From contig QHNR01000063.1 in NCBI GenBank assembly GCA_003218475.1, positions 1,305-47,166 on the forward strand: a DNA stretch of 45,862 nucleotides, written 5' to 3'. The notes below the pieces were generated by a model, which made no database searches, was not told the DNA's origin, and saw nothing but the letters and a program-made list of their open reading frames with translations. Position 1 is the stretch's first letter. Each line of letters begins with the position of its first letter. A program made the position numbers and the translations under genes. Source of the stretch: Verrucomicrobiota bacterium (GTDB lineage: Bacteria > Verrucomicrobiota > Verrucomicrobiia > Chthoniobacterales > UBA10450). Shown here in pieces: positions 29,105 through 44,892 of this stretch.

Positions 29105-29137
29105 GACTAAGGTCCATTAGACCAAGGTCCACTATCA
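29105..29137 (+). promoter_or_regulatory. GACYAAGGTCC motif, tandem pair
   Basis: Two copies (GACTAAGGTCCATTAG and GACCAAGGTCCACTATC) follow each other with an exact 15-base period. The core GACC-AA-GGTC of the second copy is a perfect palindrome. The pair ends about 28 bases before ATG 29166, a position suited to activator binding or a promoter element. The same motif precedes at least six more genes downstream. Confidence 0.65.
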
Positions 29138-29165
29138 TTCGGACTGGCGGGGCCTAATCTGGGGC

Positions 29166-29732
29166 ATGATCGCCACGCCCCAGATTGAAAGTCGGGCGGT
29201 GTCGCAACAGCCTTCTTCGGAAGGTGTTTGCCTGGTGGATGATGATCCCATGGTGCTCAGATCGATCGGCCGTTTACTCGGTTCGAGTGGGTTCGCCGTG
29301 CAGCCGTTTAACAAAGGCGCGGCTTTCATTGACTATGTAGCCGCACACGATGTGCGGCTCGTCGTGCTCGACCTTTGGATGAAGGAAATGACCGGCTTGG
29401 AAGTTCTGGCGCGGCTTTGCGCAATATCGCCGAAGACTAATGTGATTGTGATCACAGGACACGATGATCGCGCCGCGCGGCTCACTGCGATGCAAATCGG
29501 CGCAGTCGCCTTTCTTATTAAGCCCTTTGACGATGAACAAATTGTCGAGGCGGTTCATCGGGCACTTGGTCACGCGACTGACAGGTCGCGGTTGATCAAG
29601 CCAGGAGCTCATCATCGCTTTAGCCTCACTCGAGACTCCCCATTTGCTCCCTCATTGGGCCAACGTCCCGATAAGAGGAGCTCGCGAAACCTGCCAAAGA
29701 TCCTAAGAAAACAGAAAGGAACTAAGTTATGA
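29166..29732 (+). CDS. receiver-only response regulator (FixJ-type REC)
   Basis: The 188-residue protein holds one receiver domain at about residues 20-135. It has the acidic pocket LVDDDP, phosphoacceptor Asp69 in VVLDLWMKEMTG, Thr97 in VITGHDD and Lys119 in LIKPFDD. It is FixJ-like in the SGFAVQPF and AFLIKPF segments but has no DNA-binding domain. The C-terminal 50 residues are basic and low in structure (HHRFSLTRDSPF to LRKQKGTKL). It may be a phosphate sink or protein-interaction output. It follows the first kinase gene and overlaps the next small gene by four bases. Confidence 0.85.
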   Translation: MIATPQIESRAVSQQPSSEGVCLVDDDPMVLRSIGRLLGSSGFAVQPFNKGAAFIDYVAAHDVRLVVLDLWMKEMTGLEVLARLCAISPKTNVIVITGHDDRAARLTAMQIGAVAFLIKPFDDEQIVEAVHRALGHATDRSRLIKPGAHHRFSLTRDSPFAPSLGQRPDKRSSRNLPKILRKQKGTKL

Positions 29733-30004
29733 GTAAATCAACCCCAACCCTTACGCAAAGTGGACTGCTGGCCGTGTTGCTGCAACGACAGCGCTACGTA
29801 TCCCACCTAGCCCGACGCCGTGCAGACCGCAAGCACCAGCATGCCACCGTTTGGAGTGGCCTCACTTGGGCGTGGCGAGCGTTCAGGTCGCCAAAGCTGC
29901 TAGACGATTCTGGCCTACCCACTGTAAGAGTTAGCAGGCGCCACACTTTCTTGCGAGTCGCGCCCTCTGGAACTGCTGTGCACGTTCAGGCGAAGAGGGT
30001 CTAA
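29729..30004 (+). CDS. small basic protein translationally coupled to the receiver gene
   Basis: The ATG at 29729 overlaps the receiver stop as ATGA and has AAAGGA about nine bases upstream, which supports real translation. The 91-residue product is rich in Arg, His and Trp (YVSHLARRRADRKHQHATVW, LTWAWRAFRSPKLL) with no membrane segment or recognisable domain. Function unknown; coupling suggests it works with the receiver or is a degenerate gene. Confidence 0.5.
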   Translation: MSKSTPTLTQSGLLAVLLQRQRYVSHLARRRADRKHQHATVWSGLTWAWRAFRSPKLLDDSGLPTVRVSRRHTFLRVAPSGTAVHVQAKRV

Positions 30005-30116
30005 TAAGTATATCGCTGCTATTCATCGCACCCCAAACAGCAAGGTAGAGACTTATGGGACATGTTCGGATACAAGTTATCTATGTTGGCAGTTCCATAG
30101 CTCCGACGGAACGAAC

Positions 30117-30548
30117 GTGACGGAACTGCCCGCCGATGCCGAGTACGTAGAAGACGCCAGCCTGTTCATCTGGAGGCCGCACGGCATCCTCGACGAGGCT
30201 GAGGTAAATAAGGTCTTGGTGGACCTCATTAGAAGAGAAACCACGGCCGAGAAGCCATTCAATCGTTTTTCTGATCTCTCGCTCGTCGAATCTTTTCACC
30301 TTACTTTCAAATATGTTTTTCATGTCGCGCTACACCGGCGCCTTTCCTATGTTGGCCGCGAACGGATAAAGTCCGCATTTTATGTCACGAATCCGGAAGC
30401 TGCTCATCTTATCAAAATCCACGCCCTTTTGACCGATCTCTCGCCATTGGAGGTCGAGATGTTCGAAACACGCGAAGCTGCCGCGAAATGGCTAGGCGTG
30501 CCGGTTGGGTCGTTGCTGCCCAAGGCGAGCGGCAGAACAACCTCCTAG
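30117..30548 (+). CDS. hypothetical protein, possibly STAS/SpoIIAA-like fold
   Basis: The 143-residue ORF starts at GTG 30117. It reads EYVEDASLFIWRPHGILDEAEVNKVLVDLI in its first half, then FNRFSDLSLVESFHLTFKYVF, and ends with AHLIKIHALLTDLSPLEVEMFETREAAAKWLGV. The layout, a strand giving RPHGILDEAEV and a final helix with FETREAAAKWLG, resembles SpoIIAA-like/STAS-type proteins that hypothetically bind lipids or regulatory partners. That assignment is weak. It lies between the first and second kinase genes on the same strand and could belong to the same regulatory block. Confidence 0.6.
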   Translation: MTELPADAEYVEDASLFIWRPHGILDEAEVNKVLVDLIRRETTAEKPFNRFSDLSLVESFHLTFKYVFHVALHRRLSYVGRERIKSAFYVTNPEAAHLIKIHALLTDLSPLEVEMFETREAAAKWLGVPVGSLLPKASGRTTS

Positions 30549-30820
30549 AAGCCGTCAGATCACTTGCCTTCCATAATGCGGAGAAGCGATGATGTGCTGA
30601 ATTCGTGTTTGGCCGACTCGTCGAAACGAAGAGGACTCCGTCTCGATTTGGATTTACATTCAGTATCGTTCTCCCCATTGTCTGGGACTAGCTCACGCGT
30701 TATGCAGCGTTCCCTCGCGTTGACAAGCTTGCTAGTTTCCCCTGTTTGTCGGGAAGCTGCTTTGCAAGACCGCAAAAAGCCAATGCTCGTGTTCAACTGC
30801 GAGCGGTCTCATCTCTGCCG

Positions 30821-33424
30821 ATGAGCTGGATCACACTGCTTTGGTCGATGGACGCCGCGTTTTGTTTCACGGCTGCCGGGATATACCTGCTGATCTGGAG
30901 CAAACGACGCCAGAACTGGGTGTATTTGTTGTTTTCGAGCAGCGCTTTGGCGACGGGAATCATCGCAGAGCTCGAGTTGATAGGGATGCACGCGCAGACA
31001 ACCGCACAATACAGCGCGGTGCTGCGATGGGCGCAACTGCCGATCTGGATGCTGACCTTGTCGATCGTATGGTTTGGTCGTCTCTATCTCCGTGCCGGGC
31101 GACTGTGGTTAGCGTGGTGCGTCTGCGGTGTGCGGACGCTGGCGCTTTTACTTAATTTTCTTTTCCCGCCAAATCTTAATTTTCGGGAAATCACGAGTCT
31201 GGGGCATCTCTCTTGGTGGGGAGGGGAAACGGTCTCTGTTGCGGTAGGCGTACCGAATCCTTGGAGCTTGATCGGCCAACTGAGTACGGTGTTGCTTCTT
31301 ATTTTCTTCGTGGATGCTACGATCGCTGTCTGGCGTCGTGGCGAACAGCGGCGCGCGCTTCTTGTGGGAGGGAGCGCAATTCTTTTTATCACGTTGGCGC
31401 TGGTGCAGTCCGTGCTGGTGATTTGGGGAGCTGTCCAATGGCCATTCATCAACAGTGTCCCTTACCTGGGAATCATCGCGGCGATGGGCTATGAATTGAG
31501 CTACGACTTCCTCCGTGCGGCCAAACTTGCCCAGGACTTCCAAACCAGCGAAGCCGCGCTGCGGGAAAGCGAAGCGCGCATTAACATCGCAACGAACGCG
31601 GCAAACCTCGGTTTGTGGCTTTGGAACATCCCTGGTGACCAGCTCAGGGTAACGCAGAAATGGAGAGAGTTATTCGGTTTCCCGGATTCGGAGCCAGTGA
31701 CGTTTGACCGATTGCTCCAACTCGTGCACCCCGAGGACCGGGAACGTATGAAGCAGCTTGTGCAACAGATGTTCGAGCACGGCGGCGAGTACGAGAGCGA
31801 ATATCGTATCTCGCGGCCGGACGGAAGCACACGCTGGATCCTGGGTTATGGCAGCGTTGAGCTCGACGAACGTGGCAAACCGGCGTTCGCGCGCGGGGTG
31901 TCGCGCGACATCACCACGCGCAAACTGGCGGAGGAAGAATTGCGTGAGAGTGAAGAGCGTTTTCGCACAGTAGCCAACGCCGCGCCCGTGCTCATCTGGA
32001 TGTCAGGTCCGGACAGACTTTGCACCTTTTTCAATAAAGGGTGGCTGGACTTTACTGGCCGAAGTCTGGAGCAGGAGCTTGGCAATGGATGGGCAGAGGG
32101 CGTTCACCTGGAAGACTTGGATCGCTGCCTGGATGTTTATCAAAATTCCTTCAACGCGCGCGAATCGTTTACAATGGAATATCGCCTGCGCCGAAGTGAC
32201 GGTGAATACCGCTGGGTTCTGGATAGCGGAACACCACGGTTTGCTCCCGATGGCGCGTTCCTCGGTTACATTGGCTCATGCATTGACATCACGGAGCGGA
32301 AGAGCTCCGAAGAACAATTCCGGCTCGTGCTGGATGCTGCGCCAAATGCGATGATCATGGTCGACTCAGCCGGTGTAATCAACTTCGCCAACGCGTCGGC
32401 AGCGACCGTCTTCGGCTATTCTTTTAGCGAGTTGATCGGCTGCCAGATCGAAATGTTGATTCCGGAACGGTTCCGCGCTCAACATCCCGGCTATCGCAAA
32501 CATTTTGTTTCTCAACCGAGCAGCCGCGCAATGGGAGTCGGTCGCGATCTTTTTGGCCGCCGCAAAGACGGCACCGAATTTCCAGTCGAAGTAGGACTCA
32601 GTCCGATCCATACCGCGGAAGGTCTGTTTGTTCTGGCGTCATTGATCGACATTACCGCGCGCAAGGAGGCGGAGCTAGAGCATGAGCGCCAAAACATGGA
32701 ACTGGCCCGGGCGGGACGCGTCGCATTGATGGGCGAACTGGCGGCGTCGCTGGCACATGAAGTCAACAATCCGGTTGGGGCGATCGTAGCGAACGCCAGC
32801 GCCGGGCAGCGCTTGCTCGCGGCGGACAAAATCGGAACCGAAGAAATGACGGAGCTGCTTGCCGACATCGTGGCTGACGGCCGCCGAGCCGGTGACATTA
32901 TTCGGGGCATTCGCAGTATGGTCCGTAAAGGCGAAGCTCAGCACTCTTTAGTCCAGATCAACAACTTAATTGACGATCTTCTGCGGATTGTCCACGGCGA
33001 GGCCATTGGACGGGAGGTTAGAGTCACAGTCGAAGTTGATTCCGACGCGGGCCAGGTTTGGGGAGATTCAGTGCAGCTCTTGCAGGTTCTTCTCAATCTC
33101 ACCGTCAACGCATTCGAAGCAATGACCGCTCTGCCCGCCAACGCGCGGTCCCTTATCATTCGTGCGAGTCATGACGGAAACGGAAACATTCTTGTCAAAG
33201 TGCGTGATTCTGGTCCTGGCTTCCCCAGCGGCATCAGCGAACAACTCTTCGAGCCATTCTTTTCGACAAAAGCCGAAGGAACCGGAATGGGACTGGCGAT
33301 CGCGCGCAGCATCGTGGAGGCGCACGGTGGATCGCTCTCGGCAGAGAATTGTGACGATGGCGGCGCCTGTTTTACGATTCGCTTGCCTGAAGCAAAGGAG
33401 GAAAAATCAAAGTCGCCGCCTTAA
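30821..33424 (+). CDS. membrane PAS-PAS-PAS sensor histidine kinase
   Basis: From ATG 30821 (MSWITLLWSMDAAF) the product is 867 residues; an in-frame start at 30746 only adds a non-homologous leader. Residues 1-230 form about seven membrane helices, a sensor unlike MASE1. Three PAS domains follow at about 246-367, 377-493 and 496-615 (ends DITTRK, DITERK and DITARK). His646 in SLAHEVNNPVGAI is the phosphoacceptor. The ATPase domain shows VLLNLTVNAFEAM, DSGPGF and GTGMGLAIARSIVEAHGG. PAS 1-3 are nearly the same as those of the 41495 kinase, while the His region is closer to the 26598 kinase. The N-terminal start is copied as a remnant at 41216. Confidence 0.92.
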   Translation: MSWITLLWSMDAAFCFTAAGIYLLIWSKRRQNWVYLLFSSSALATGIIAELELIGMHAQTTAQYSAVLRWAQLPIWMLTLSIVWFGRLYLRAGRLWLAWCVCGVRTLALLLNFLFPPNLNFREITSLGHLSWWGGETVSVAVGVPNPWSLIGQLSTVLLLIFFVDATIAVWRRGEQRRALLVGGSAILFITLALVQSVLVIWGAVQWPFINSVPYLGIIAAMGYELSYDFLRAAKLAQDFQTSEAALRESEARINIATNAANLGLWLWNIPGDQLRVTQKWRELFGFPDSEPVTFDRLLQLVHPEDRERMKQLVQQMFEHGGEYESEYRISRPDGSTRWILGYGSVELDERGKPAFARGVSRDITTRKLAEEELRESEERFRTVANAAPVLIWMSGPDRLCTFFNKGWLDFTGRSLEQELGNGWAEGVHLEDLDRCLDVYQNSFNARESFTMEYRLRRSDGEYRWVLDSGTPRFAPDGAFLGYIGSCIDITERKSSEEQFRLVLDAAPNAMIMVDSAGVINFANASAATVFGYSFSELIGCQIEMLIPERFRAQHPGYRKHFVSQPSSRAMGVGRDLFGRRKDGTEFPVEVGLSPIHTAEGLFVLASLIDITARKEAELEHERQNMELARAGRVALMGELAASLAHEVNNPVGAIVANASAGQRLLAADKIGTEEMTELLADIVADGRRAGDIIRGIRSMVRKGEAQHSLVQINNLIDDLLRIVHGEAIGREVRVTVEVDSDAGQVWGDSVQLLQVLLNLTVNAFEAMTALPANARSLIIRASHDGNGNILVKVRDSGPGFPSGISEQLFEPFFSTKAEGTGMGLAIARSIVEAHGGSLSAENCDDGGACFTIRLPEAKEEKSKSPP

Positions 33425-33572
33425 CTTTCAGCGGGAAAGAATTAACCTCCGCAAGAAGTTCATTCGTGTCGCCAGGCGCCGGAGCCAAAACTTTTGGCCA
33501 TACCCGCGAAGCCGCGGTGTGCGAATAGAAATTTACGGGTATCACGCCGGAGTGACGACGACATCGACGTGA

Positions 33573-33590
33573 GACTAAGGTCCAATATCA
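33573..33590 (+). promoter_or_regulatory. GACYAAGGTCC motif
   Basis: GACTAAGGTCCAATATCA lies 55 bases before ATG 33646 of a receiver-only gene. It agrees with the consensus GRCYAARGTCCNATA at all core positions. Confidence 0.6.
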
Positions 33591-33645
33591 TTTTATTTCC
33601 CGAAGCCTTATCGTTAACTGCACACGCCACCTTCCCCTCACACAT

Positions 33646-34080
33646 ATGACAGCTTTGAAACACCTCGAAGAACCAGCTGCCCGAGTTTCGACTTTGGGAC
33701 TTAACGGCTCCAATTCGATCTGGCTCCTTGACGACGACGCTTCCATGTTGAGAGCGCTCGGCCGTTTGCTTACGTCAGCAGGCTTTAGTGTGGAAAAGTT
33801 TAACCATCCTGCCGCCTTTCTCTCCAGGCTCGAGCAAGCGAGATGTAAGGTCGCCGTCCTCGACGTATGGATGCCCTTCATGGATGGACTGGAAGTGCAG
33901 GCGTTGCTCAACCAAAATTCGCCGGACACACAGATTATTTTCATTAGCGGACGGTACGATCCGTCAGTGCGCCAGACTGCGCTCGATGCGGGAGCGTTTG
34001 CATTCCTTGCAAAACCTTTCGAGGATGAGGTTCTGGTGAAGCTCATTCAAGAGGCCCTCCAGGCTAAGCAGTACTCCTGA
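33646..34080 (+). CDS. receiver-only response regulator (FixJ-type REC)
   Basis: The 144-residue protein is a single receiver. Acidic pocket LLDDDASML, phosphoacceptor Asp73 in VLDVWMPFMDG, Ser101 in FISGRYD in place of the more usual Thr, and Lys123 in LAKPFEDE are all present. No output domain is attached. It is similar to the receivers at 29166 and 44910 (WLLDDDA, GFSVEKF, AGAFAFLAKPF). It follows the second kinase gene by 221 bases and carries its own upstream copy of the shared motif, so it is probably transcribed independently. Confidence 0.88.
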   Translation: MTALKHLEEPAARVSTLGLNGSNSIWLLDDDASMLRALGRLLTSAGFSVEKFNHPAAFLSRLEQARCKVAVLDVWMPFMDGLEVQALLNQNSPDTQIIFISGRYDPSVRQTALDAGAFAFLAKPFEDEVLVKLIQEALQAKQYS

Positions 34081-34256
34081 GCCGTTCTCAACCACAACCA
34101 ACCCAGTTCATTCTTTCTGACACACAGGGGGCAGCGAAGGCGAAACACCACGTGCCAGATGCTGCGCTGGTTATCCCCGAGCGAATCCTTCCAGTCTGCA
34201 AGCAAGCGAGCACAAAAGCGCCGTTGTGGGGGTCGTGCAAATGGGTGTCGGGGTAC

Positions 34257-34273
34257 GACCAAGGTCCCATATA
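34257..34273 (+). promoter_or_regulatory. GACYAAGGTCC motif
   Basis: GACCAAGGTCCCATATA contains the perfect palindrome GACC-AA-GGTC. It lies about 122 bases before ATG 34395 of an outer-membrane protein gene. The surrounding 314-base gap (34081-34394) holds nothing else I can name. Confidence 0.6.
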
Positions 34274-34394
34274 CGATCCAACGACGATCCCTGAATGATG
34301 GCTGCGGAATAAAAGAAAGCCCACTTCGGTTCAGAAAAAAACTTAAGAAACTTATTGACGAGCCCACCCTTTACCCCTTATCACGCCTATCGTT

Positions 34395-35168
34395 ATGAAA
34401 AAGTTATCTCTTATCTCAACAGCAATCCTGATTGGATTCCTCGCCGCTCCGTTGCAAGCCGGAACGGAGGTCTACAAGCAGGTTGCGCCGCCGCCGCCGC
34501 CACCCGAACTTTACGGACTCGGTTTCTACGGAGCGATCGACGCGGGGGCGAACGTCTATCAAAACCGCGGTGGAGACAGAACGTTTACGGGTGAAAACCG
34601 CATTAACGACCTAACCGATAGGGATTTTCAAGCTACTCTGGAGGTCTCGCCGAAGAATGACGTCGGCTTTTACGGCGGCATTAAACTCGGTTACGTCTTT
34701 GGCACGGGCGTATTTCGTCCAACGATTGAAGGCGACTTCTTTTACAATGGCTTTCGGGGCGGCGCTGACTTCACCCTGAGAGATCGCTTTGGTGACGTTT
34801 TAGCACAGCGCGACGTGACTACTTGGATCAATACGGGCGCGTTTATGGGGAACTTCATCGGGAGATTCGCATTTGGAAGATTTCAGCCGTATGCGGGCGC
34901 CGGGGTCGGCATTTACTATGCCGAATCTGCGGGGGTCGAGGTCCGGGACCCCGTAACCGGTCGTGTCCCAGTCAACACTGGCGGGGGGCGAAGTCACGCG
35001 GACCTCGCATGGCAAGTGGTCGCAGGCTCAGATTACTATTGGAACCCCAAGTTCAGCACTTTTATCGAATATCACTTCCTCGTTTATACCAGCACCCAAA
35101 TCGATACTCGACAAGATCGCGATCTGAAGCAGCACCTCGTAGGCGCGGGTGTTCGGTTCCACTTTTAG
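34395..35168 (+). CDS. outer-membrane beta-barrel protein
   Basis: The 257-residue protein has a signal peptide (LSLISTAILIGFLAAPLQA) and a Pro-rich linker (QVAPPPPPPELYG). The rest is a series of amphipathic strands: GFYGAIDAGANVYQ, VGFYGGIKLGYVFG, PTIEGDFFYNGFRGG, PYAGAGVGIYYAE, FSTFIEYHFLVYTS. It ends in the strand GAGVRFHF with a terminal Phe, the outer-membrane C-terminal signature. This is the small OmpA/Opa-like barrel type of Verrucomicrobia. A strong terminator follows. The shared motif lies upstream, so it may be controlled by the local two-component system. Confidence 0.85.
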   Translation: MKKLSLISTAILIGFLAAPLQAGTEVYKQVAPPPPPPELYGLGFYGAIDAGANVYQNRGGDRTFTGENRINDLTDRDFQATLEVSPKNDVGFYGGIKLGYVFGTGVFRPTIEGDFFYNGFRGGADFTLRDRFGDVLAQRDVTTWINTGAFMGNFIGRFAFGRFQPYAGAGVGIYYAESAGVEVRDPVTGRVPVNTGGGRSHADLAWQVVAGSDYYWNPKFSTFIEYHFLVYTSTQIDTRQDRDLKQHLVGAGVRFHF

Positions 35169-35196
35169 AAGCACGCGGAATTCCCTGGTTAAGTTG

Positions 35197-35230
35197 ATCG
35201 GCCTCCTTTGATCAGGAGGCCGATTTTTTT
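35197..35230 (+). terminator. strong intrinsic terminator
   Basis: ATCGGCCTCCT (35197-35207) pairs perfectly with AGGAGGCCGAT (35214-35224) over a short loop, followed by a run of eight T residues ending near 35231. It ends the transcript of the barrel gene and isolates it from the next one. Confidence 0.9.
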
Positions 35231-35255
35231 TAACGCGTATCGTCAGCACAACTGC

Positions 35256-35276
35256 CATAGGCCTAAAGTCCTATAG
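35256..35276 (+). promoter_or_regulatory. GGCCTAAAGTCC variant of the shared motif
   Basis: The core GGCCTAAAGTCCTATAG is framed by inverted ATAGG/CCTAT. A copy with 21 identical bases lies at 38139-38159 before the sulfatase gene. This copy ends 76 bases before ATG 35353. Confidence 0.6.
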
Positions 35277-35352
35277 ACGCATCGCACTAGCCACCACATG
35301 GTTGCGCTGATTTTTCTCGGATTTATGCGTCGGCGACGGTAAAAATCGGGTC

Positions 35353-36525
35353 ATGAGAACAAAACTGTCTTTCTTCGCTGGCGCGGTGTTCGCAACAGTC
35401 GGGCACCTAGGAGCGGGCTCGATGGAACTCGCGCCGAAGGAGACCGCGCCGCCATCAATTACTCAGAGCGAGCCGTGGCAATTTACGATTGCGGTGCCCG
35501 GTTGGCTGGCGAGCTTCAACGGGACAATCGGGATCCGTGGGGTTAACGCGAACATCGACGTCCCCGTCACCGAAGTTCTGCAGCATTTTGACGCGATTTT
35601 GGCGGGGCGGGTCGAGGCACAAAAAGGACCCTTCGGAATATTCGGTGAAGCGATCTACATGGGTCTTTCGGACGTCACGCAGATAAACGGATTGATCAAC
35701 AACATCCATGAAACAGTGGACCTAACTTACGTTGACGGTGCCTTAAGTTGGCGGCTCGTTAACCAGCCGCGCTGGTTCCTGAATTTCGCTGCCGGCACGC
35801 ACTACACCACCGTCTACGAACAACTGGAACTACATTCCGACCCGATCCTGATTCAACAGACAAGCAAACAGTTCGTTGACAATATCGCCGACGATTTGCG
35901 GGACCGCCTTAACAAGGACATTTCTAACAGCGAATTTCTTGCTGCTCTCAAGGGCACAATCGAGGCAGACATTGTCAGCCGGATCGACAAGCATAACTTG
36001 TTAGAACGCCACGAAAGTAAACCAAGAATTCCAATCGGTCCCTTGGGCGGGCGCATTGAAGAAGATGTTGCTCAACGGGTCGAGAATTTTATTGAGAAGG
36101 AAAAGGCCGCTTTGGAGGCACGGATAGATGCGCTCAGGCTCATGGGAGCCGCACGTCGCGCCGCGGTTGCTCGCGCCGTTAATGCGGCTAAGGCGCGAAT
36201 CGCGAATCAACTTGCGCTTCGCCTGGACAAGAGCCTGAGCCAAACTTTGTCAAAAGACGATTACTGGTTCGATCCATATGTCGGATTGCGCGCCCGTTAC
36301 AATTTTAACAGGACGTTTTACACCGCAGTCCGCGGCGAGATCGGAGGATTCGGCGTAGGCGCCGACCTGATGTGGGAGGTCGAGACCGTGGTTGGTATCA
36401 ACCTGACGCGTTCCATCTTTACAGAGATCGGTTACCGGGCACTCGGCGCTGACTACGAGAATAACGGGCTCCTTTTCGACGCAGTGCTGCACGGCCCGCA
36501 AATCACAACGGGGATCACCTTCTGA
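35353..36525 (+). CDS. outer-membrane beta-barrel protein with internal helical insert
   Basis: The 390-residue protein has a signal peptide (FFAGAVFATVGHLGAG). The N-terminal half is beta-rich (WQFTIAVPGWLASFNGTIGI, GPFGIFGEAIYMGLSD, VDGALSWRLVNQPRWFLNF). About residues 170-295 are strongly helical and charged (FVDNIADDLRDRLNKDI, RVENFIEKEKAALEARID, AARRAAVARAVNAAKARI). Final strands return (YVGLRARYNFNRTFYTAVR, VVGINLTRSIFTEIGYRAL) and end in PQITTGITF, with the terminal Phe of barrel proteins. The helical insert looks like a coiled coil or a periplasmic plug. Its upstream motif is shared with the sulfatase gene. Confidence 0.8.
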   Translation: MRTKLSFFAGAVFATVGHLGAGSMELAPKETAPPSITQSEPWQFTIAVPGWLASFNGTIGIRGVNANIDVPVTEVLQHFDAILAGRVEAQKGPFGIFGEAIYMGLSDVTQINGLINNIHETVDLTYVDGALSWRLVNQPRWFLNFAAGTHYTTVYEQLELHSDPILIQQTSKQFVDNIADDLRDRLNKDISNSEFLAALKGTIEADIVSRIDKHNLLERHESKPRIPIGPLGGRIEEDVAQRVENFIEKEKAALEARIDALRLMGAARRAAVARAVNAAKARIANQLALRLDKSLSQTLSKDDYWFDPYVGLRARYNFNRTFYTAVRGEIGGFGVGADLMWEVETVVGINLTRSIFTEIGYRALGADYENNGLLFDAVLHGPQITTGITF

Positions 36526-36568: not shown

Positions 36569-37036
36569 ATGCTAATCAGGGTAAACTGGCCAACTAAGCC
36601 GCGAATAGCCACAAAAGTCAAAGCAGATGCGGCAAAATTCATCGCCGTTATCGCGATCGTATGCACAGTATTCTTTGTGGGCTGTGCCACCACACAGACT
36701 ACCATGCAGAACAGAGAAAGCATGCTGGTGGCCTCCGGATTTAAGGTCATCACGCCTAAGACGGCAGCGCAGCAACAAAAGCTCCAAAACCTTTCGCCGG
36801 GCAAGGTAACCATGATCCATAAAGGGAAGAAAACATATTACATCTTCCCGGACCCGGTCCACAACCGCTCTTATGTTGGCGGACCCAGAGAGTACCAGGC
36901 TTACCAACAACTCCGTGCTACAAATAGACTTTCGAAGGAGAATCTCGAAAGCGGCGAGATGTACCAGGATTCGGAGATGCAGTGGAGTTCATGGGGCGGA
37001 TGGGGAGCCGGCTGGAGTGCGAACGTTTTCGAATGA
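36569..37036 (+). CDS. putative lipoprotein
   Basis: The 155-residue protein has an N-terminal hydrophobic segment (FIAVIAIVCTVFFVGC) with a lipobox-like FVGC, so Cys39 can be lipidated. The mature part includes FKVITPKTAAQQQKLQNL, GKVTMIHKGKKTYYIFPD and YVGGPREYQAYQQL. I know similar proteins as hypothetical in Verrucomicrobia. Starting at ATG 36569 fits the lipobox. It lies 43 bases after the barrel gene on the same strand, without a copy of the shared motif of its own, so the two may be an operon. Confidence 0.65.
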   Translation: MLIRVNWPTKPRIATKVKADAAKFIAVIAIVCTVFFVGCATTQTTMQNRESMLVASGFKVITPKTAAQQQKLQNLSPGKVTMIHKGKKTYYIFPDPVHNRSYVGGPREYQAYQQLRATNRLSKENLESGEMYQDSEMQWSSWGGWGAGWSANVFE

Positions 37037-37132
37037 ATGAGAGGGTGTGACAAATCGCTGCCACGGCCATTGCGCAGCGCTTTAGCTTGCCTCGGGCAGT
37101 GAGCTGATAGGATCTCGCGGCGGAGAGGATGG

Positions 37133-37148
37133 GACCAAGGTCCAATAG
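37133..37148 (+). promoter_or_regulatory. GACYAAGGTCC motif
   Basis: GACCAAGGTCCAATAG is the best consensus match in the window, with the palindromic core. It lies 35 bases before ATG 37184 of a 59-residue ORF, which supports the reality of that ORF. Confidence 0.6.
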
Positions 37149-37432: not shown

Positions 37433-38059
37433 GTGTCCAAATACAACAAAAACAGGAACGCCCGCGGGAAGGTCACGGCAGCGAGTAACAAATCGACAGT
37501 GAAAAGGCATTACAGTAAATTACTGTTCGCAGCCGTGGCGCTCATTCCCGCCGCCTTGTTCGCGCAGAGTCTTGCTCCAACACCTCCCTTTGCTGATCAG
37601 GCCGAACTTTCCAAAGTGGCAGAATGGGTGCTTTCTCAAGGCACTGAAGAGTCGATAGCCCCTGAGCTGGCGGCTATACTCGGACTTGGCAGTGATCGTC
37701 TTCCAGTGAAGCTAAAGTCGTATCGTACGACGGAGGGTATTAGTCTCACATTTGCTTTCAGCACTAACCCAAAGCAAGAGGGCATCGTGATTTCTGCGCT
37801 CAAAACAATGGCAGATAAGATGGAAATTTATTCCGTTGGCACTGCCTGGCTTACGGACAGATCAGGAACTCTTCGCCAAACGATAGCGGTAGATGCTTCC
37901 GGCGCCAGGGTTCTTCCAAACAGTTCCCACGCAGCGAAATTTCAAGACATAAAGGCCTTCTTCATCAAGAAACTTCAGGCCACCAGTCCGACTACTGCCT
38001 TATCACCCTCTCCCAGAATATCTGCAACACGTGTGGGAGGGAAAAAAGAAACCAAGTGA
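37433..38059 (+). CDS. secreted protein of unknown function
   Basis: The 208-residue ORF starts at GTG 37433. A basic N-terminus (SKYNKNRNARGKVTAASNKS) precedes a hydrophobic export segment (LLFAAVALIPAALFAQS). The mature domain has LSKVAEWVLSQGTEESIAPE, LPVKLKSYRTTEGISLTFAFS and DASGARVLPNSSHAAKFQDI. It ends with a Ser/Thr-rich tail. I do not recognise a family. It lies between the small prepilin-like ORF and the sulfatase gene, all on the same strand, and may be co-transcribed with the former. Confidence 0.6.
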   Translation: MSKYNKNRNARGKVTAASNKSTVKRHYSKLLFAAVALIPAALFAQSLAPTPPFADQAELSKVAEWVLSQGTEESIAPELAAILGLGSDRLPVKLKSYRTTEGISLTFAFSTNPKQEGIVISALKTMADKMEIYSVGTAWLTDRSGTLRQTIAVDASGARVLPNSSHAAKFQDIKAFFIKKLQATSPTTALSPSPRISATRVGGKKETK

Positions 38060-38138
38060 TAAGAGTTCAATGAAACTACAAAGCTGCGATCTGCTGACGC
38101 TCTTAGCCTCGCCTTGGGCACGGCGGGACAGCGCATGG

Positions 38139-38159
38139 CATAGGCCTAAAGTCCTATAG
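38139..38159 (+). promoter_or_regulatory. GGCCTAAAGTCC variant of the shared motif
   Basis: Identical over 21 bases to the copy at 35256-35276 (core GGCCTAAAGTCCTATAG). It lies 69 bases before ATG 38229 of the arylsulfatase gene, at nearly the same distance as in front of the barrel gene at 35353. Confidence 0.65.
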
Positions 38160-38228
38160 GGAAATTACCTAAGGCACACCAAATTGCGCTTACTCAGATG
38201 AGTTGGTGAGTAGCAACAATCAGAACAA

Positions 38229-40763
38229 ATGCCTATGAAATCAGCAAGACAGATCTTCCTTTGCGGGATGGTCGCTGCCGCCGTCATGGCGGTTGCGCCT
38301 TCTGTCCGAACCCAAGTGCAAATCACTGGCGAGCCTGGCTCGCCCAGCGCCACGACGACCATTGACGGCAAACAACTGCCGCCGCCACCGATGAAGTTCG
38401 GCGGCGTGATCAAGGAAAGCGTTTCGGATTCCACACCCTGGTGGCCGCCGCGCGTCGTCCCGCCCAAGGGCGCGCCCAACATCGTGCTCATCATGACTGA
38501 CGACCAAGGCTACGGTATTTCGAGTACCTTCGGCGGCGTCATCCCGACGCCGGCCCTGGATCGCATCGCGAAATCGGGGCTGCGCTACACGCAGTTTCAT
38601 TCTACCGCGCTCTGCTCGCCTACGCGTGCCGCGTTGATCACCGGTCGCAATCATCACTCGGTGGGCTTCGGCGTGGTCGGCGAATTGGCCACCGGCTATC
38701 CGGGCTACGATTCCGTCATTGAGCCGGACAAGGCCACCATCGCTGAAATCCTGAAGGAGAATGGCTACGCGACATCGTGGTTCGGGAAAGAACATAACAC
38801 CCCCACCTATCAATACAGTCTGGCCGGGCCTTATGACCAATGGCCTTCAGGCATGGGCTTCGAGTATTTCTACGGGTTCATGGGTGGCGAGACCGACCAG
38901 TGGACGCCTTACTTGTTCAAGGATCATACGCAGATTACTCCGTGGGTTGGGCATCCGGGTTACAACCTCACGACCGATATGGCGGATGAGGCCGTCAAGT
39001 ATTTGCATAGCATGAACGCGGTCGCCCCGGACAAGCCGTTCTTCCTTTATTACGTCCCCGGGGGCACGCATTCGCCGCATCAGCCCACAAAGGAGTGGAT
39101 TGACAAGATCCACGCGATGCACCTGTTCGACAACGGCTGGGAAAAGTTGCGTGAGACGATATTTGAAAACCAAAAGAAGCTCGGCGTCATCCCCGCCGAC
39201 ACGCAACTGACTGCATGGCCGGACGGACAGGCCGAATTTGGCGGCGCGAAGCTGCCCCGGTGGGATTCACTTTCGCCGATCCAAAAGAAACTTTGCGTCC
39301 GCCAGGCCGAGGTCTTCGCCGCCTACGCTGCCTACACCGATTATGAAATCGGCCGCGTGATCCAGGAGGTTCAGGATCAAGGCAAGCTCGACAACACGCT
39401 TGTCATCTACATCTGCGGCGACAACGGCACGAGTCCCGAAGGCACGTTGGAGGGCACCTACAATACGTTGACGGCTTACAACGGCATTCTGAAATTGCCG
39501 GAGGCGTTGCAGTTGCTGCATTACGAGGATTGGGGATCGGACAAAACCTATCCGCACATGGCGGTGGGCTGGACGTGGGCTTTTGACACGCCGTTCAAAT
39601 GGACTAAGCAAGTGGCGTCGCATTTCGGCGGCACGCGGCAGGGCATGGCCATTTCCTGGCCCGGCCACATCACGGATGCGGGCGCCATCCGCACGCAGTT
39701 TCACCATGTCATTGACATCGTGCCCACCATTCTCGAAGCCACCGGCATCAAGGCTCCCGATTTAGTCAATGGTATCCCGCAAAAACCGATTGAAGGCGTT
39801 AGCATGGCTTACACGTTCGATCCCGCGGCCGCGGGACCAAACGTCCCGTCGAAGCATGAGACGCAGTACTTCGAGATGGTTGGCAACCGTGCGATCTATC
39901 ACGACGGCTGGATTGCTGCTACTACACCACCATCCGCGCCTTGGCTCCTGGGCGCTACGATGCCTCCGTTGGGTAACTATAAATGGGAACTCTACAACGT
40001 CGCCAAGGATTATTCTGAGAACAACGACCTCGCTGCTCAGCAGCCGGACAAACTGAAGGAAATGCAGGCATTGTTCCTGACCGAGGCGGCAAAATATCAG
40101 GTTTTCCCCTTGGACAACTCGGGCTTTGTGCGCGTGCTCGCGCCGAAGCCGAGCACGACCGCCGGCAAAACAGAATTCACCTACACGGGTGTGAACGCCG
40201 GCATTCCCTTCGGCAATGCGCCCGGCATTTTGGATAAGGACTACACCATCACCGCCGAGATAACGGTTCCCAAAGGCGGCGCGGAGGGAATGATCGTAAC
40301 GATGGGTGGACGTTTTGGCGGTTATGGCCTTTTCCTGCAAAAGGGCAAGCCGATTTTCGCCTACAACCTTCTTGATATGGAGCGATTCCGCTGGGAGGGC
40401 GGCATAGGTGGTAGGATAGGCGAAGACTTCTTTGGCCGTGCGCTCGCGCCAGGCAAACACACACTCGTGTTCGACTTCAAATACGACGGCCCCGGCCCTG
40501 GCAAGGGCGGTACTGGCGTATTTACGGTGGACGGCAGGGAGTTGGCGAAGAAGACGATCGCGCACACGATTCCGTTGATCATGACCGTTGACGAAACCTT
40601 CGACATCGGCCTGGATACCGGCACGGGAGTGGACGAGAGCTACAAGCTGCCGTTCAGGTTCACCGGCACGATTGACAAGCTCACCTTCAAGCTGGGCCGG
40701 TCTCAAATGACCGCGGCGGAACAGCGGGCCATTGAGGAGAAACTCATCCTAGCCACGGACTAA
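38229..40763 (+). CDS. arylsulfatase (type I, Cys-type formylglycine)
   Basis: The 844-residue protein hydrolyses sulfate esters. A signal peptide (FLCGMVAAAVMAVAP) predicts export. The sulfatase domain begins at APNIVLIMTDDQGYG with the metal-binding Asp pair, then has the formylglycine motif CSPTRAALITGR with Cys129 (C-x-P-x-R). Further landmarks are WFGKEHNTP, PFFLYYVPGGTHSPH and IYICGDNGTSPEG with the second metal site. A C-terminal beta-sandwich domain (about 640-830, with GKHTLVFDFKYDG) follows. Cys129 must be converted by a maturase, which is not in the window. The ATG at 38235 is an alternative start. Preceded by the shared motif and followed by a small membrane protein gene. Confidence 0.93.
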   Translation: MPMKSARQIFLCGMVAAAVMAVAPSVRTQVQITGEPGSPSATTTIDGKQLPPPPMKFGGVIKESVSDSTPWWPPRVVPPKGAPNIVLIMTDDQGYGISSTFGGVIPTPALDRIAKSGLRYTQFHSTALCSPTRAALITGRNHHSVGFGVVGELATGYPGYDSVIEPDKATIAEILKENGYATSWFGKEHNTPTYQYSLAGPYDQWPSGMGFEYFYGFMGGETDQWTPYLFKDHTQITPWVGHPGYNLTTDMADEAVKYLHSMNAVAPDKPFFLYYVPGGTHSPHQPTKEWIDKIHAMHLFDNGWEKLRETIFENQKKLGVIPADTQLTAWPDGQAEFGGAKLPRWDSLSPIQKKLCVRQAEVFAAYAAYTDYEIGRVIQEVQDQGKLDNTLVIYICGDNGTSPEGTLEGTYNTLTAYNGILKLPEALQLLHYEDWGSDKTYPHMAVGWTWAFDTPFKWTKQVASHFGGTRQGMAISWPGHITDAGAIRTQFHHVIDIVPTILEATGIKAPDLVNGIPQKPIEGVSMAYTFDPAAAGPNVPSKHETQYFEMVGNRAIYHDGWIAATTPPSAPWLLGATMPPLGNYKWELYNVAKDYSENNDLAAQQPDKLKEMQALFLTEAAKYQVFPLDNSGFVRVLAPKPSTTAGKTEFTYTGVNAGIPFGNAPGILDKDYTITAEITVPKGGAEGMIVTMGGRFGGYGLFLQKGKPIFAYNLLDMERFRWEGGIGGRIGEDFFGRALAPGKHTLVFDFKYDGPGPGKGGTGVFTVDGRELAKKTIAHTIPLIMTVDETFDIGLDTGTGVDESYKLPFRFTGTIDKLTFKLGRSQMTAAEQRAIEEKLILATD

Positions 40764-40811
40764 GCGGATAAGCAACAGCAGCAGCGAAAGACGAGGCGTA
40801 AGCAAATCGAG

Positions 40812-41168
40812 ATGAAGCAACTGCTCACTCTCGCTGCCGTGATCGAAGCGGTCACGGGTCTGGCGTTGATAGTTGCTCCGTCGCTTGCGGGGCGACTCTT
40901 ACTCGGCGCGCAAGGTACCGGCGTCGCCATACCGGTAGCTCGCGTACTCGGTATCGCCTTGATCGCATTAGGGATCGCCTGCTGGCCGGGCCCGGCATTG
41001 CTCGGTATGCTAGCCTACGGCGCGCTTGTTACTGCGTACCTCTTGTATCTTGGTATTCGCGGTGAGTGGGCCGGCCCGCTGCTATGGCCCGCAGTCGTGT
41101 TGCATGCGGCGCTGACGCTGCTTCTCGCCCGGGCTTGGTGCAAGCCATCAAAGAACAGAGCAACATAA
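40812..41168 (+). CDS. small multi-pass membrane protein
   Basis: The 118-residue product has about four hydrophobic helices (LLTLAAVIEAVTGLALIVAP, VARVLGIALIALGIACW, ALLGMLAYGALVTAYLLYLG, LLWPAVVLHAALTLLLARAW). It has a short basic tail. Small proteins of this kind are known next to sulfatase genes, but a function is not assigned. It starts 48 bases after the sulfatase stop on the same strand, so it is probably its operon partner. Confidence 0.65.
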   Translation: MKQLLTLAAVIEAVTGLALIVAPSLAGRLLLGAQGTGVAIPVARVLGIALIALGIACWPGPALLGMLAYGALVTAYLLYLGIRGEWAGPLLWPAVVLHAALTLLLARAWCKPSKNRAT

Positions 41169-41215
41169 CAACTGGCCGAATCGAAAAAGGGTGTAATCAT
41201 TACTGAGATCACGTC

Positions 41216-41482
41216 ATGAGCTGGGTCACACTACTTTGGTCGATGGACGCTGCGTTCTGTTTCACGCTGGCGTGGATCTATTTGCTGGTGTCGCTCCAGC
41301 AGCGGCAGAGGTGGGACCATTGGCTGTTTTCGTGCTGCGCCATGGCGGCTGGAGCGAACGATTCTAGGCCAACGCGCAAACTCGGTCGCGGCTTCTCTAA
41401 TTTTTTCTTGGCGCCGGCTGAAGTTTTCGTGAGCGTTACATCAGTCGCTCGAGGCCGACGTAGAAATAAGAAGATTCGCTGA
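41216..41482 (+). pseudogene. N-terminal remnant of a sensor kinase gene
   Basis: The first 50 residues (MSWVTLLWSMDAAFCFTLAW, then IYLLV and RQRW) match the start of the kinase at 30821 at protein and DNA level (ATGAGCTGG..CACACT..TTTGGTCGATGG). After about 41355 similarity stops and the ORF continues with unrelated Arg/Ser-rich residues for 35 codons. The remnant ends 12 bases before the third kinase gene. It shows that a kinase of the 30821 type once stood here and that its sensor part was replaced or deleted. Probably not functional. Confidence 0.7.
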
Positions 41483-41494
41483 GGCGGTGAGGCG

Positions 41495-44236
41495 ATGCAC
41501 TCGCGACCTTTTTCCAAGCTGCCAGTAATTGGTATTTTAACAGTTGTCTATTTCATTGCCGGCAAGTTCGGATTGATGCTGGCATCTTTGCACGCAAGTG
41601 CATCGCCGGTGTGGCCGGCAGCGGGAATTGCGCTCGCGGCATTGCTCGTACTCGGTTACCGAGCCTGGCCTGCAATTTTTATCGGTGCATTTCTGGTGAA
41701 CGTTACCACTGCGGGCAATGTCGCCACATCGCTTGCCGTCGCGAGCGGCAACACGCTCGAGGCTGTTTGCGGTGCCTGGCTGGTGAATAGGTTCGCCGGC
41801 GGCACAACCGTCTTCGATCGTCCGCAAGGTGCCGTTAAGTTCGCGCTCGCAGCAGTGGTTAGCACAGTTATCGGTCCAGCTTTTGGGGTGACCAGTCTTG
41901 CACTTGGTGGATTTGCCGATTGGGCCAATTTTGCTGCGATCTGGATGACGTGGTGGCTGGGCGACACAACGGGCGATCTTCTGATCGCTCCATTGATTAT
42001 TCTCTGGAGCATCCCATCAAAACGGCGCTGGAACAGGAGGGAAGCTGTTGAAGTGGGCATCCTCCTACTGCTGTTGTTCGTCCTCAGCGAAGCGGTCTTT
42101 TGCGGATGGCTTACAATTTCGGCCAGGAATTATCCAATCGCATTCATCTCCCTGCCGATTGTGATTTGGACGGCCTTCCGCTTCACGCAGCGCGAAACCG
42201 CTACGGGCATCTTTATTCTCTCAGCGATCGCGATTTGGGGCACAATGCATGGTTTCGGGCCATTCGTCGGGGAAACCGAAAACCAGTCGCTTCTTGCTCT
42301 GCAGTCCTGGACGGCTGTGCTCACCATTACTGCGATGGCGCTTTCCGCGGGCATGGCGGAACGCGGGCGGGCTGAGAAGGCACTGCGGGAAAGCGAAGCG
42401 CGCATGAGCCTCGCGGTTAACGCGGCGAACCTCGGTCTGATGGTTTGGGACATCCTGGGTGACGAACGTTGGGTAACGGAGAAATGGAGACAGTTGTTCG
42501 GCTTCGCGGATTCGAAGCCAGTGACGTTTAACCGATTTCTCCAGATAGTGCACCCCGGCGATCGCGAACGTGTAAAGCAAGTTGTGCAGCACGTGTTGGA
42601 GCACGGTCGGGAGTACGAAATCGAATATCGCATCACGCGGCCGGACGGAAGCACCCGCTGGATCGCTGGTCATGGCAGCGTCGAGTTAGACGAAGGTGGC
42701 AAAGCGGTCTTAGCGCGCGGCGTGTCGCGCGACATCACCAAGCGCAAAATAGCGGAGGAAGAGTTGCGTGAGAGCGAAGCGCGTTTTCGCACCGTAGCCA
42801 ACGCCGCGCCCGTGATGATCTGGATGTCAGATCCAGACAAACTTTGCACCTTCTTTAACAAAGGGTGGCTTGACTTTACCGGCCGAACTCTGGAGCAGGA
42901 GCTTGGAAATGGATGGGCAGAAGGCGTGCACCCGGAAGACATAGATCGCTACCTCGACATTTATCAAAATTCCTTCAACGCGCGCGAATCGTTTACAATG
43001 GAATATCGGCTGCGGCGAAGTGACGGTGAATACCGCTGGGTTCTGGACATTGGAACGCCGCGCTTTGCGTCCGATGGCGCGTTCATCGGTTACATCGGCT
43101 CATGCATTGACATTACTGAGCGGAAGGCCGCTGAAGAGAAATTCCGGCTCGTGCTCGATGCTGCGCCCAACGCAATGATTATGGTCGACCCAGCCGGTGT
43201 GATCAACTTCGCTAACGCGTCGGCAGCAACCGTCTTCGGCTATTCTCTCAGCGAGTTGATCGGCTGCCAGATCGAAATGTTGATTCCAAAACGTTTCCGC
43301 GATCGACATCCCGGCTATCGCAAAGATTTTCTTTCTCACCCCAGCGGCCGCGCAATGGGAGTCGGGCGCGATCTTTTTGGTCGTCGGAAAGACGGCAGCG
43401 AATTTCCCGTAGAAGTGGGACTTAGCCCGATGCGCACGACGCGAGGCGTATTTGTTCTGGCATCATTGATCGACATTACCGCACGCAAGGCCGCTGAAGT
43501 GGAGGCGCGCCAGCGTCGCGAACAGGTCGAACTTCTCGGCCGGGTCAGCTTGCTTGGCGAGATGACTGCTTCTCTCGCGCACGAATTAAACCAACCGCTT
43601 GCGGCGATCGTGAACAACGCCACCGCCGCGATGCAATACATCGAACAGGGCAAGCTCGACCCCGAACAACTACAGGAGATTCTTACCGACGTGGTGGGAG
43701 ACAGTCGCCGCGCGCATGACATCATGCGTAATGTGCGGAGTGCGATTAAGAAGGGCAGCGCGATTCGCGGGCGGATCAATTTGAACGACGTGGTGAAAGC
43801 CGTCACGCACATGGTTCACCCGGATGCCGCCGCACACTTCTGCAAGGTGGAAATGTCCCTCGCGCCAAATTTGCCGACCATCGAAGGGGATCCCACCCAG
43901 ATTCAGCAGGTGTTGATTAATCTCGTGAGCAACGCCTTTGATGCGATGCGTGGTACGCCGCCGAGCCGCCGGAAGGTGGAGATTGCCACGAATTACAATG
44001 GCGACGGCACGATCTCTGTCGCCGTGCGCGACTATGGTTCCGGGATCGCAGAGCCAACGCAGGAGCGCCTTTTCGAGCATTTCTTCACCACGAAAGAGGA
44101 AGGTCTCGGAATGGGTCTTGCCATCGTGCGCTCGATCGTCGAAGCACATGGGGGAAGCATTGCAGCCGAAAACGCCGATGGAGGTGGCGCGCGTTTTCGT
44201 TTTCGTCTGCCGACTAAGGAGGGGATGCCACAATGA
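41495..44236 (+). CDS. MASE1-PAS-PAS-PAS sensor histidine kinase
   Basis: The 913-residue protein has a MASE1 membrane sensor at about residues 10-290 (FGLMLASLHASASPVWPAAG, GNTLEAVCGAWLVNRF), three PAS domains at about 297-418, 428-543 and 546-664, and His696 in SLAHELNQPLAAIV. The ATPase domain has VLINLVSNAFDAM, DYGSGIA and GLGMGLAIVRSIVEAHGG. It is FixL-class. The PAS block is very similar to that of the 30821 kinase. The stop overlaps the next gene's ATG as ATGA, so kinase and FixJ-type regulator are translationally coupled and are the best cognate pair in the window. Confidence 0.93.
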   Translation: MHSRPFSKLPVIGILTVVYFIAGKFGLMLASLHASASPVWPAAGIALAALLVLGYRAWPAIFIGAFLVNVTTAGNVATSLAVASGNTLEAVCGAWLVNRFAGGTTVFDRPQGAVKFALAAVVSTVIGPAFGVTSLALGGFADWANFAAIWMTWWLGDTTGDLLIAPLIILWSIPSKRRWNRREAVEVGILLLLLFVLSEAVFCGWLTISARNYPIAFISLPIVIWTAFRFTQRETATGIFILSAIAIWGTMHGFGPFVGETENQSLLALQSWTAVLTITAMALSAGMAERGRAEKALRESEARMSLAVNAANLGLMVWDILGDERWVTEKWRQLFGFADSKPVTFNRFLQIVHPGDRERVKQVVQHVLEHGREYEIEYRITRPDGSTRWIAGHGSVELDEGGKAVLARGVSRDITKRKIAEEELRESEARFRTVANAAPVMIWMSDPDKLCTFFNKGWLDFTGRTLEQELGNGWAEGVHPEDIDRYLDIYQNSFNARESFTMEYRLRRSDGEYRWVLDIGTPRFASDGAFIGYIGSCIDITERKAAEEKFRLVLDAAPNAMIMVDPAGVINFANASAATVFGYSLSELIGCQIEMLIPKRFRDRHPGYRKDFLSHPSGRAMGVGRDLFGRRKDGSEFPVEVGLSPMRTTRGVFVLASLIDITARKAAEVEARQRREQVELLGRVSLLGEMTASLAHELNQPLAAIVNNATAAMQYIEQGKLDPEQLQEILTDVVGDSRRAHDIMRNVRSAIKKGSAIRGRINLNDVVKAVTHMVHPDAAAHFCKVEMSLAPNLPTIEGDPTQIQQVLINLVSNAFDAMRGTPPSRRKVEIATNYNGDGTISVAVRDYGSGIAEPTQERLFEHFFTTKEEGLGMGLAIVRSIVEAHGGSIAAENADGGGARFRFRLPTKEGMPQ

Positions 44237-44892
44237 TGACTCCAACTGCAATGGTGTTCGTGATCGATGACGATGAAGCGGTGCGAAAAAGTCTAGGGCG
44301 GTTGTTAGGCGCTGCCCATTACAGAATCGAACTCTTCAAGTCTGCTTCCGAGTTTCTCTCGCGTTCAGCCCATCCCGGACCTTCATGCGTCGTTGTCGAC
44401 GTGCGGATGCCCGGGTTGAACGGAATCGATCTGCAGAAAGCTCTCATCGAACGCCACCGCGAAGAGCAGATCATTTTTATAACTGGTCACGGCAATATCC
44501 CGATGTGTGCCCAGGCAATGAAGGCAGGTGCCGTCGATTTTCTCCCGAAGCCTTTCAAGCCCAAAGAATTATTGGCAAGCGTCGAACGCGCCCTGAGACG
44601 CTCGGCCGAACAACGCCGTCGCGCGGCGGAGAAGAATCATGCCCGCGGCCTGCTCGAACGGCTAACGCCGCGCGAGTTTCAAGTTATGCAACTCGTGATC
44701 ACGGGGCTGCTCAATAAACAAGTTGGCGCTGAGCTCGGAATGGCGGAAAAGACGGTTAAAACCCATCGCGGCCATATTATGCAGAAGTTGGGGATCACTT
44801 CGGTCGCTGAGCTTATAGGCGTGGTGAAAAAAGCTGAAGTGCCCCCGGCGAAAGACCTACGACTAAGGTCTCATAGCGTTGCGACGGTCTGA
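44233..44892 (+). CDS. FixJ/NarL-type response regulator with LuxR HTH
   Basis: The 219-residue protein has a receiver (FVIDDDEAVRKSLGRLL, Asp56 in VVVDVRMPGLNG, Thr84 in FITGHGN, Lys106 in LPKPFKP) and a C-terminal LuxR-type helix-turn-helix at about residues 143-200 (LTPREFQVMQLVITGLLNKQ, then MAEKTVKTHRGHIMQKLG). It should bind DNA as a dimer when phosphorylated, usually at short inverted repeats. It is the only DNA-binding regulator seen in the island and is coupled to the third kinase by a four-base overlap. I infer it as the prime candidate to bind the GACYAAGGTCC motif. One copy of the motif lies inside its own 3' end. Confidence 0.93.
   Translation: MMTPTAMVFVIDDDEAVRKSLGRLLGAAHYRIELFKSASEFLSRSAHPGPSCVVVDVRMPGLNGIDLQKALIERHREEQIIFITGHGNIPMCAQAMKAGAVDFLPKPFKPKELLASVERALRRSAEQRRRAAEKNHARGLLERLTPREFQVMQLVITGLLNKQVGAELGMAEKTVKTHRGHIMQKLGITSVAELIGVVKKAEVPPAKDLRLRSHSVATV
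44861..44876 (+). promoter_or_regulatory. GACYAAGGTCC motif within the end of the regulator gene
   Basis: GACTAAGGTCTCATAG overlaps the last codons of the regulator gene (stop at 44892) and lies 33 bases before ATG 44910 of the next receiver gene. The fit is good except for one T. Confidence 0.55.

Follow-up and report, generated by a model that had tools for sequence, protein, structure and literature searches.

We analysed a stretch of 45,862 nucleotides (hereafter the window) from contig QHNR01000063.1 of a Verrucomicrobiota bacterium, in which a palindromic motif recurs upstream of genes in a signalling island that encodes histidine kinases, receiver-only response regulators, putative outer-membrane proteins, a sulfatase and a FixJ/StyR-type response regulator, here called the 44233 protein after the start of its gene (Table 1). 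Judged from the sequences of the window and of related genomes, the motif is very probably the operator of this protein, which would act as an activator driven by kinases with MASE1 and PAS domains and would have targets throughout the genome.

Table 1. Genes of the signalling island and predicted operator sites in the window.
Feature	Coordinates	Strand	Basis
Ninth operator-like site, ATAAGACTTTCGTCCAAT	23057..23074	.	matrix score 20.3
MASE1-PAS-PAS sensor histidine kinase	26598..29063	+	Pfam
Tandem predicted operator sites, 29101-29118 and 29116-29133	29101..29133	.	pattern and matrix
Receiver-only response regulator; -10-like TAATCT 5 nt upstream of ATG	29166..29732	+	Pfam, alignment, sequence
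Small conserved protein, with homologues that follow sites at L047 and L071	29729..30004	+	sequence comparison
Multi-PAS histidine kinase, no MASE1 match; start uncertain	30746..33424	+	Pfam
Predicted operator site	33569..33586	.	pattern and matrix
Receiver-only response regulator	33646..34080	+	Pfam, alignment
Predicted operator site	34253..34270	.	pattern and matrix
Putative outer-membrane beta-barrel protein (OMP34)	34395..35168	+	OMP_b-brl E 3e-5, below gathering score
Predicted operator site	35257..35274	.	pattern match
Second conserved putative outer-membrane protein (OMP35); no family found	35353..36525	+	sequence comparison
Lipoprotein-like protein; no family found	36569..37036	+	sequence comparison
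Predicted operator site, highest score in the window (24.3)	37129..37146	.	pattern and matrix
Small membrane peptide, 59 amino acids	37184..37363	+	by-eye reading of sequence
Predicted operator site	38140..38157	.	pattern match
Sulfatase	38229..40763	+	PF00884 E 1e-57
MASE1-PAS sensor histidine kinase, presumed partner of the 44233 protein	41495..44236	+	Pfam
FixJ/StyR-type response regulator (receiver and GerE), helix AEKTVKTHRGH; proposed regulator	44233..44892	+	Pfam
Predicted operator site within the 3' end of fixJ, upstream of the next receiver gene	44857..44874	.	pattern match
Receiver-only response regulator; -10-like TAATGT 6 nt upstream of ATG	44910..45329	+	Pfam

An 18-bp palindrome in the window and in the genome

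With the pattern of the original prediction and up to three mismatches, eight matches were found in the window (at 29105, 29120, 33573, 34257, 35261, 37133, 38144 and 44861, all given on the plus strand and spanning 29105-44876), whereas shuffled sequences averaged 0.77 matches and none of 100 shuffles reached eight, which supports the motif copies as real. The GACC/GGTC halves with a two-base spacer that had been described for them need revision: the repeat unit, read from the copies in the genome, is an 18-bp palindrome, ATAGGAC-YWWR-GTCCTAT, with 7-bp arms and a 4-bp spacer. Six of the eight window sites have the core GAC-N4-GTC and two have GCC-N4-GTC. The distance from the end of the site to the start codon is 32-124 bases, in agreement with the 31-122 bases given originally, and the sites of the three receiver-only genes lie 32, 59 and 35 bp upstream.

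A symmetrical weight matrix derived from the eight window sites gave them leave-one-out scores of 15.7-23.0. When the full matrix was applied to the rest of the window, position 23057 ranked highest (20.3) and the runner-up scored 10.1, so that the first 29 kb, originally thought to lack a good match, contain one strong site, and the weak site suggested at 45350 (score 5.0) is no site. The site at 23057-23074, far outside the signalling island, lies 79 bp upstream of the ATG (23154) of an EipA-like gene, whose EipA match is under the gathering score, with DUF3300 and DUF2950 genes in divergent orientation.

The genome of the window (3.16 Mb in 195 contigs, 83% complete) holds the motif at 34 places with up to three mismatches, compared with 9 for the reversed pattern, and at 19 places with up to two mismatches, compared with none for the reversed control; three copies of the 18-mer are exact. 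Only three of the 19 places are inside the window, and the merely local regulon of the original prediction is dismissed on these counts. The intergenic bias that was proposed as a test of the motif is pronounced. Within the window and 17 further stretches, together containing all 19 places, the site centre falls inside an open reading frame (ORF) of at least 100 amino acids in two cases and outside such frames in 17, although these ORFs make up 78% of the same DNA (binomial 6e-10); the even frequency and absence of bias that would have spoken against the original prediction did not occur.

The 44233 regulator and the motif in related genomes

The 44233 protein matches Response_reg (95.6 bits) and GerE (68.0 bits) in Pfam, and the alignment places the phosphorylation residues of its receiver at D12-D14, D56, T84 and K106. 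Its nearest solved structure is StyR (1yio, E 3e-54), followed by FixJ (5xso, E 2e-41). An identity as FixJ proper was rejected with a score of 196.7 for the NCBIfam FixJ equivalog NF006900 (cut-off 255), and the score for TtrR (NF040749) is 148.5 (cut-off 290).

The protein is StyR/TodT-like by its sequence, by the geometry of its proposed operator and by the predicted placement of this operator at some promoters. According to excerpts of the papers cited here, the StyR/TodT operator has the consensus ATAAAC-N4-GTTTAT, with K175, V176 and H179 of StyR as proposed DNA contacts (PMC5874301), and StyR has an activating site at about -40 as well as repressing sites (PMC2442086). The StyS-StyR and TodS-TodT systems and the one described here have a regulator with receiver and GerE domains and an operator, proposed here, with an AC-N4-GT core; the activating site of StyR near -40 has a predicted counterpart at some promoters here. 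They differ in the half-sites (ATAAAC versus ATAGGAC here), in the helix (AEVT versus AEKT here) and in the targets, which are catabolic promoters for StyR/TodT and a genome-wide set here; the excerpts make no mention of receiver-only targets for StyR/TodT. Rhizobial FixJ, the second-closest structure, likewise has predicted operators that are 18-bp imperfect palindromes (PMC4999443, excerpt), but these differ in sequence from the one described here, its helix reads SPRT, and the kinases here are MASE1/PAS proteins by Pfam. The same FixJ-like branch is matched eleven and twelve times, respectively, in two Bradyrhizobium genomes (G434 and G435; L080, L081), with E up to 1e-35.

The motif is also present at orthologous FixJ/kinase loci, where the original prediction had proposed to look for it. 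A scan of named genomes gave 80 loci, the top five of which belong to metagenome-assembled genomes of soil Verrucomicrobia (66-69% identity); in all five, the fixJ 3' end carries a site (scores 15.9-23.7) that precedes a receiver gene, as does the site at 44857. Apart from the window's own gene, the set of relatives comprised 17 homologues with at least 63% identity, of which 16 were used (the fragment G007:C150 was left out) and within which the five soil loci were counted once. By the matrix, the site at the fixJ 3' end is present in 14 of these 16 loci. It also adjoins fixJ in the more distant genomes G066 and G074. In G066, which belongs to another family and has a FixJ 48% identical, the order kinase-FixJ-site-receiver is preserved, and another site precedes a homologue of OMP35 (32% identity). 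At L071-L073 and L277 sites precede receiver genes and homologues of the outer-membrane proteins, and homologues of OMP34 have a site upstream in L072, L073 and L297.

Sites and fixJ also occur together across 78 related genomes including that of the window, which was left out of the tests. Of the 29 genomes whose best fixJ match passed E<1e-40, a cut chosen after seeing the data, 20 had at least two sites (up to two mismatches), as against 6 of the 48 others (Fisher P=7e-7). The association was found both within the genus (16/19 versus 6/15, P=0.01) and outside it (4/10 versus 0/33, P=0.002). The four outside-genus genomes with at least two sites (G037, G066, G068, G074) all hold an E-K-T homologue, named after three residues of the recognition helix, and five of the six outside-genus genomes with a FixJ-like protein and fewer than two sites have no such homologue in the helix set described below.

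The half-sites vary with the recognition helix. From 165 candidate ORFs we retained 116 rows with a recognisable helix, identical cores being dropped; six rows are second readings of a gene, which leaves 110 distinct genes. Palindromes were located between -63 and +200 around the fixJ stop with the template N-Y-NNN-AC-N4-GT-NNN-R-N and at least five of seven pairs; because a fixed YNNR spacer missed sites in Acidobacteria, the spacer was left free. The covariation table holds the 37 genes with a palindrome and excludes the 73 without. All 17 K-class genes (E-K-T, with I-K-T in one row) have GAC in both half-sites, as against 1 of the 20 genes with other residues (P=1e-9); at 70% non-redundancy the counts are 7/7 and 1/13 (P=1e-4). 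L182 (helix SAIST), with GAC halves, is an exception to the code, chance may account for the palindromes of L227 and L268, and L082 (E-K-T, ATTGGACTGAAGGCCAAT) falls outside the template and was excluded from the count. In the tree, K with GAC is separated from Q or I with other half-sites on several branches, some inner branches being poorly supported: for example, L183 stands next to L200 and L221, L187 falls inside a clade of I types, and Q types are the neighbours of L169, L204 and L224.

The variable helix residue corresponds, by alignment count, to StyR 172, which is a valine, and to K173 of the window protein. Beside the Q-type regulators of G016 and G030 lie sites of the ATTATAC type, which number three in each genome (control 1 and 0); such sites are absent from five other relatives, occur once in the window's own genome (control 1) and occur once and twice in the Acidobacteria G430 and G431 (control 1 and 0), one each beside fixJ. 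A paralogous E-Q-T FixJ with its own cluster of ATTATAC/ATTAAAC palindromes is found at G016:C18:17068 and 17633 and at G030:C237:7369, 8239 and 10522. These data suggest, with about an even chance of being right, that the StyR/FixJ branch uses a near one-residue code, in which the x of E-x-T (StyR 172, a helix turn ahead of the proposed contact Lys175) would set the variable pairs of a common AT-nn-AC-N4-GT-nn-AT operator: K would specify GGAC or AGAC, and I, V and Q would specify ATAC, GCAC, GAAC and the like. The paralogues in G016 would thus keep separate regulons within one kinase-regulator-operator-receiver module of Verrucomicrobia, Acidobacteria and Alphaproteobacteria. For the window protein itself, the covariation points to Lys173 as the residue that would read the G/C pairs of the GAC half-sites.

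Predicted promoters, targets and alternative explanations

Promoter geometry was assessed at 30 hand-picked sites with a clear downstream gene (seven of the eight window sites, nine outside the window and 14 in relatives, some related by descent). A TANNNT hexamer begins 39-42 bases past the site start in 12 of the 30, oriented towards the gene, and 2000 rotations of the downstream sequence never matched this number, taking the best of all four-base windows. The 12 comprise the three receiver promoters of the window, five receiver promoters of relatives, the related group L047/L055/L056 and a sigma-like gene. Where the -10 is present, transcription is predicted to start about 52 bases past the site start, which would put the site centre near -43. 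At 29155-29168, at 44898-44912 and in L071 near 1805, 5-6 nt separate the end of the -10-like hexamer from the receiver ATG, and the receiver mRNAs may therefore be leaderless.

We propose that the MASE1/PAS sensor kinases of the cluster phosphorylate the 44233 regulator, which would act as a dimer, as the palindrome and StyR suggest, bind ATAGGAC-N4-GTCCTAT and switch on transcription; at receiver genes the site would cover the -35 region. Its targets would include, genome-wide, receiver-only proteins beside kinases, outer-membrane proteins, lipoproteins, sulfatases and S74-type fibre proteins. A receiver-like ORF starts within 300 bp downstream of fixJ in 51 of the 111 rows that extend far enough, more often with a palindrome (24/38) than without (27/73; P=0.01), and ten receiver-only proteins aligned with FixJ retain the aspartates, Thr/Ser and Lys of phosphorylation. 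By analogy with FixT of Caulobacter, a receiver-only feedback protein (PMC7078487, excerpt), they probably feed back on the kinases, most likely by draining phosphate from them or inhibiting them, which would give delayed negative feedback. Like FixT, the receiver-only proteins would be controlled by the system that they serve; unlike it, they form several paralogues that adjoin their kinases.

The predicted regulon looks like a cell-surface programme. A site lies within 750 bp upstream of the Pfam-match start in 7 of 18 sulfatase genes of four genomes (own genome 1/4, G007 2/4, G016 1/5, G002 3/5), a raw count made by hand with no formal background rate, in which fragments were merged and two contig-cut genes left out. 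Thirteen sites occur in the 32 kb of G007:C124:1-32000 (L298, L299), before sulfatases, membrane proteins and lipoproteins. Outside the window, where the genes behind sites were taken from mechanical ORF calls, we found repeat-protein genes at L046 (S74 domain detected), with relatives in L048, L049 and L054; at L047 a paralogue of the small 29729 protein, and a sigma-like gene (match below the cut-off) followed by a Ser/Thr kinase; at L058, on contig C158, a paralogue of the 36569 lipoprotein-like protein; and at L061 an Hsp20-like fragment, named by eye from its sequence with no Pfam match. No convincing gene was found behind the sites at L050, L051, L053 and L057.

Several observations weigh against the assignment of the motif to the 44233 protein as an activator. 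No site was found in the 1.5 kb that follow L152, the second-closest fixJ (72%), or, for L150 (78%), in the 91 bp between the match and the contig end. The helix filter dropped the window protein together with L150 and L152, and detection was low: the palindrome was found in 40 of 116 rows versus 11 of 85 control stretches further on and, by gene, in 37 of 110 (17/34 in the K class, 20/76 in the others). At the post hoc E-value cut, six same-genus draft genomes have at least two sites and no fixJ homologue (G002 7, G008 6, G031 4, G004 3, G011 2, G026 2). The seven sites of G068 compare with five control matches, and in G076, whose EKT homologue is partial, no site was found. Eighteen of the 30 promoter sites have no -10 at 39-42, among them those of both window outer-membrane proteins, the membrane peptide, the sulfatase and all four S74 genes, and the feedback role of the receivers is drawn from analogy. 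Our confidence is slightly reduced because of L152 and these 18 sites. The missing fixJ in G002 and G008 likely reflects assembly gaps, since the site clusters adjoin contig ends: in G002 the contig ends 0.7 kb past a site-OMP34 pair, where fixJ would be next, and in G008 no more than 3 kb separate the cluster from a contig end, and the genome encodes a receiver that is 83% identical.

Alternatively, a different DNA-binding regulator of the genome, such as one of its other five GerE proteins, could bind the palindrome, whose place beside fixJ would then reflect coincidence or cross-regulation. Six GerE proteins of the genome, 44233 among them, pass the cut-off; K occupies the helix position in L065 and L066 (three of the five other GerE helices were read, L067 and L068 being left out), a further point against our assignment; and some genomes have sites but no fixJ was found. 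From neighbourhoods in relatives, compared for fixJ among the six GerE genes, we nevertheless consider another regulator improbable, as the site accompanies the fixJ 3' end in most close loci and in more distant families, the half-site varies with the FixJ helix, and the EQT-type FixJ proteins of G016 and G030 are adjoined by their own ATTATAC-type sites. The 44233 protein, which the original prediction had named as the regulator, is thus supported by position, by co-occurrence across genomes and by the covariation of helix and half-site. That the palindrome is instead part of a dispersed repeat, such as an insertion sequence (IS) end or a miniature inverted-repeat transposable element (MITE), and no operator, is hardly credible. 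Several sites of the genome do lie within 600-bp stretches that form a family with 86-94% identity, and about 80% identity over 300 bp is shared by a second group (L005/L047, L013/L055, L056). However, the 600-bp family consists of promoters joined to the 5' ends of repeat-protein paralogues, one of them with an S74 domain, and was ruled out as an IS or MITE; the eight window sites have the 18-mer in common and no such flanks in common among the matches listed; and the sites of relatives stand before different genes.

The direction of control is less firmly indicated, and repression by the regulator, or a dual action in place of predominant activation, is unlikely, though less so than the two preceding alternatives. 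Polymerase can be excluded by a site that covers the -35, repressing sites are described for StyR in the excerpt cited above (PMC2442086), and the fixed -10 is missing at 18 of the 30 sites; the constant distance to the -10 at receiver promoters, as at the activating StyR site, argues for activation.

On the assignment to a 44233 activator, uncultured soil Verrucomicrobia gain an operator, a likely regulator and a list of targets. The operator, the kinases with receivers under its predicted control and a testable residue-to-half-site rule appear to be new: a literature search by title and opening of the abstract, outside which most subscription journals and preprints fall, did not find a regulon or code of this kind. 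The covariation, for which StyR serves as an outside reference, makes the DNA specificity of the family testable by one substitution and could allow operators to be predicted for orphan FixJ-like regulators, and kinases that each have a receiver behind a shared operator would exemplify multi-input feedback in nature.

Further features of the island and of the repeat-protein loci

Family searches named no family for the 29729 protein, OMP35 or the lipoproteins. Downstream of the last receiver gene in Table 1, an 80-amino-acid receiver-like ORF occupies 45435-45677 and another, cut by the window end, begins at about 45715; no good site was found upstream of either with the matrix, the best being 10.1 at 45686. 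The secreted-looking repeat proteins at L046-L049 and L054 have near-identical promoter stretches that bear the predicted operator and lie on repeat-rich contigs. Two kinase genes of the island contain 1.1 kb of DNA that is 86% identical (31556-32666 and 42380-43490), which may reflect either a recent duplication or gene conversion.

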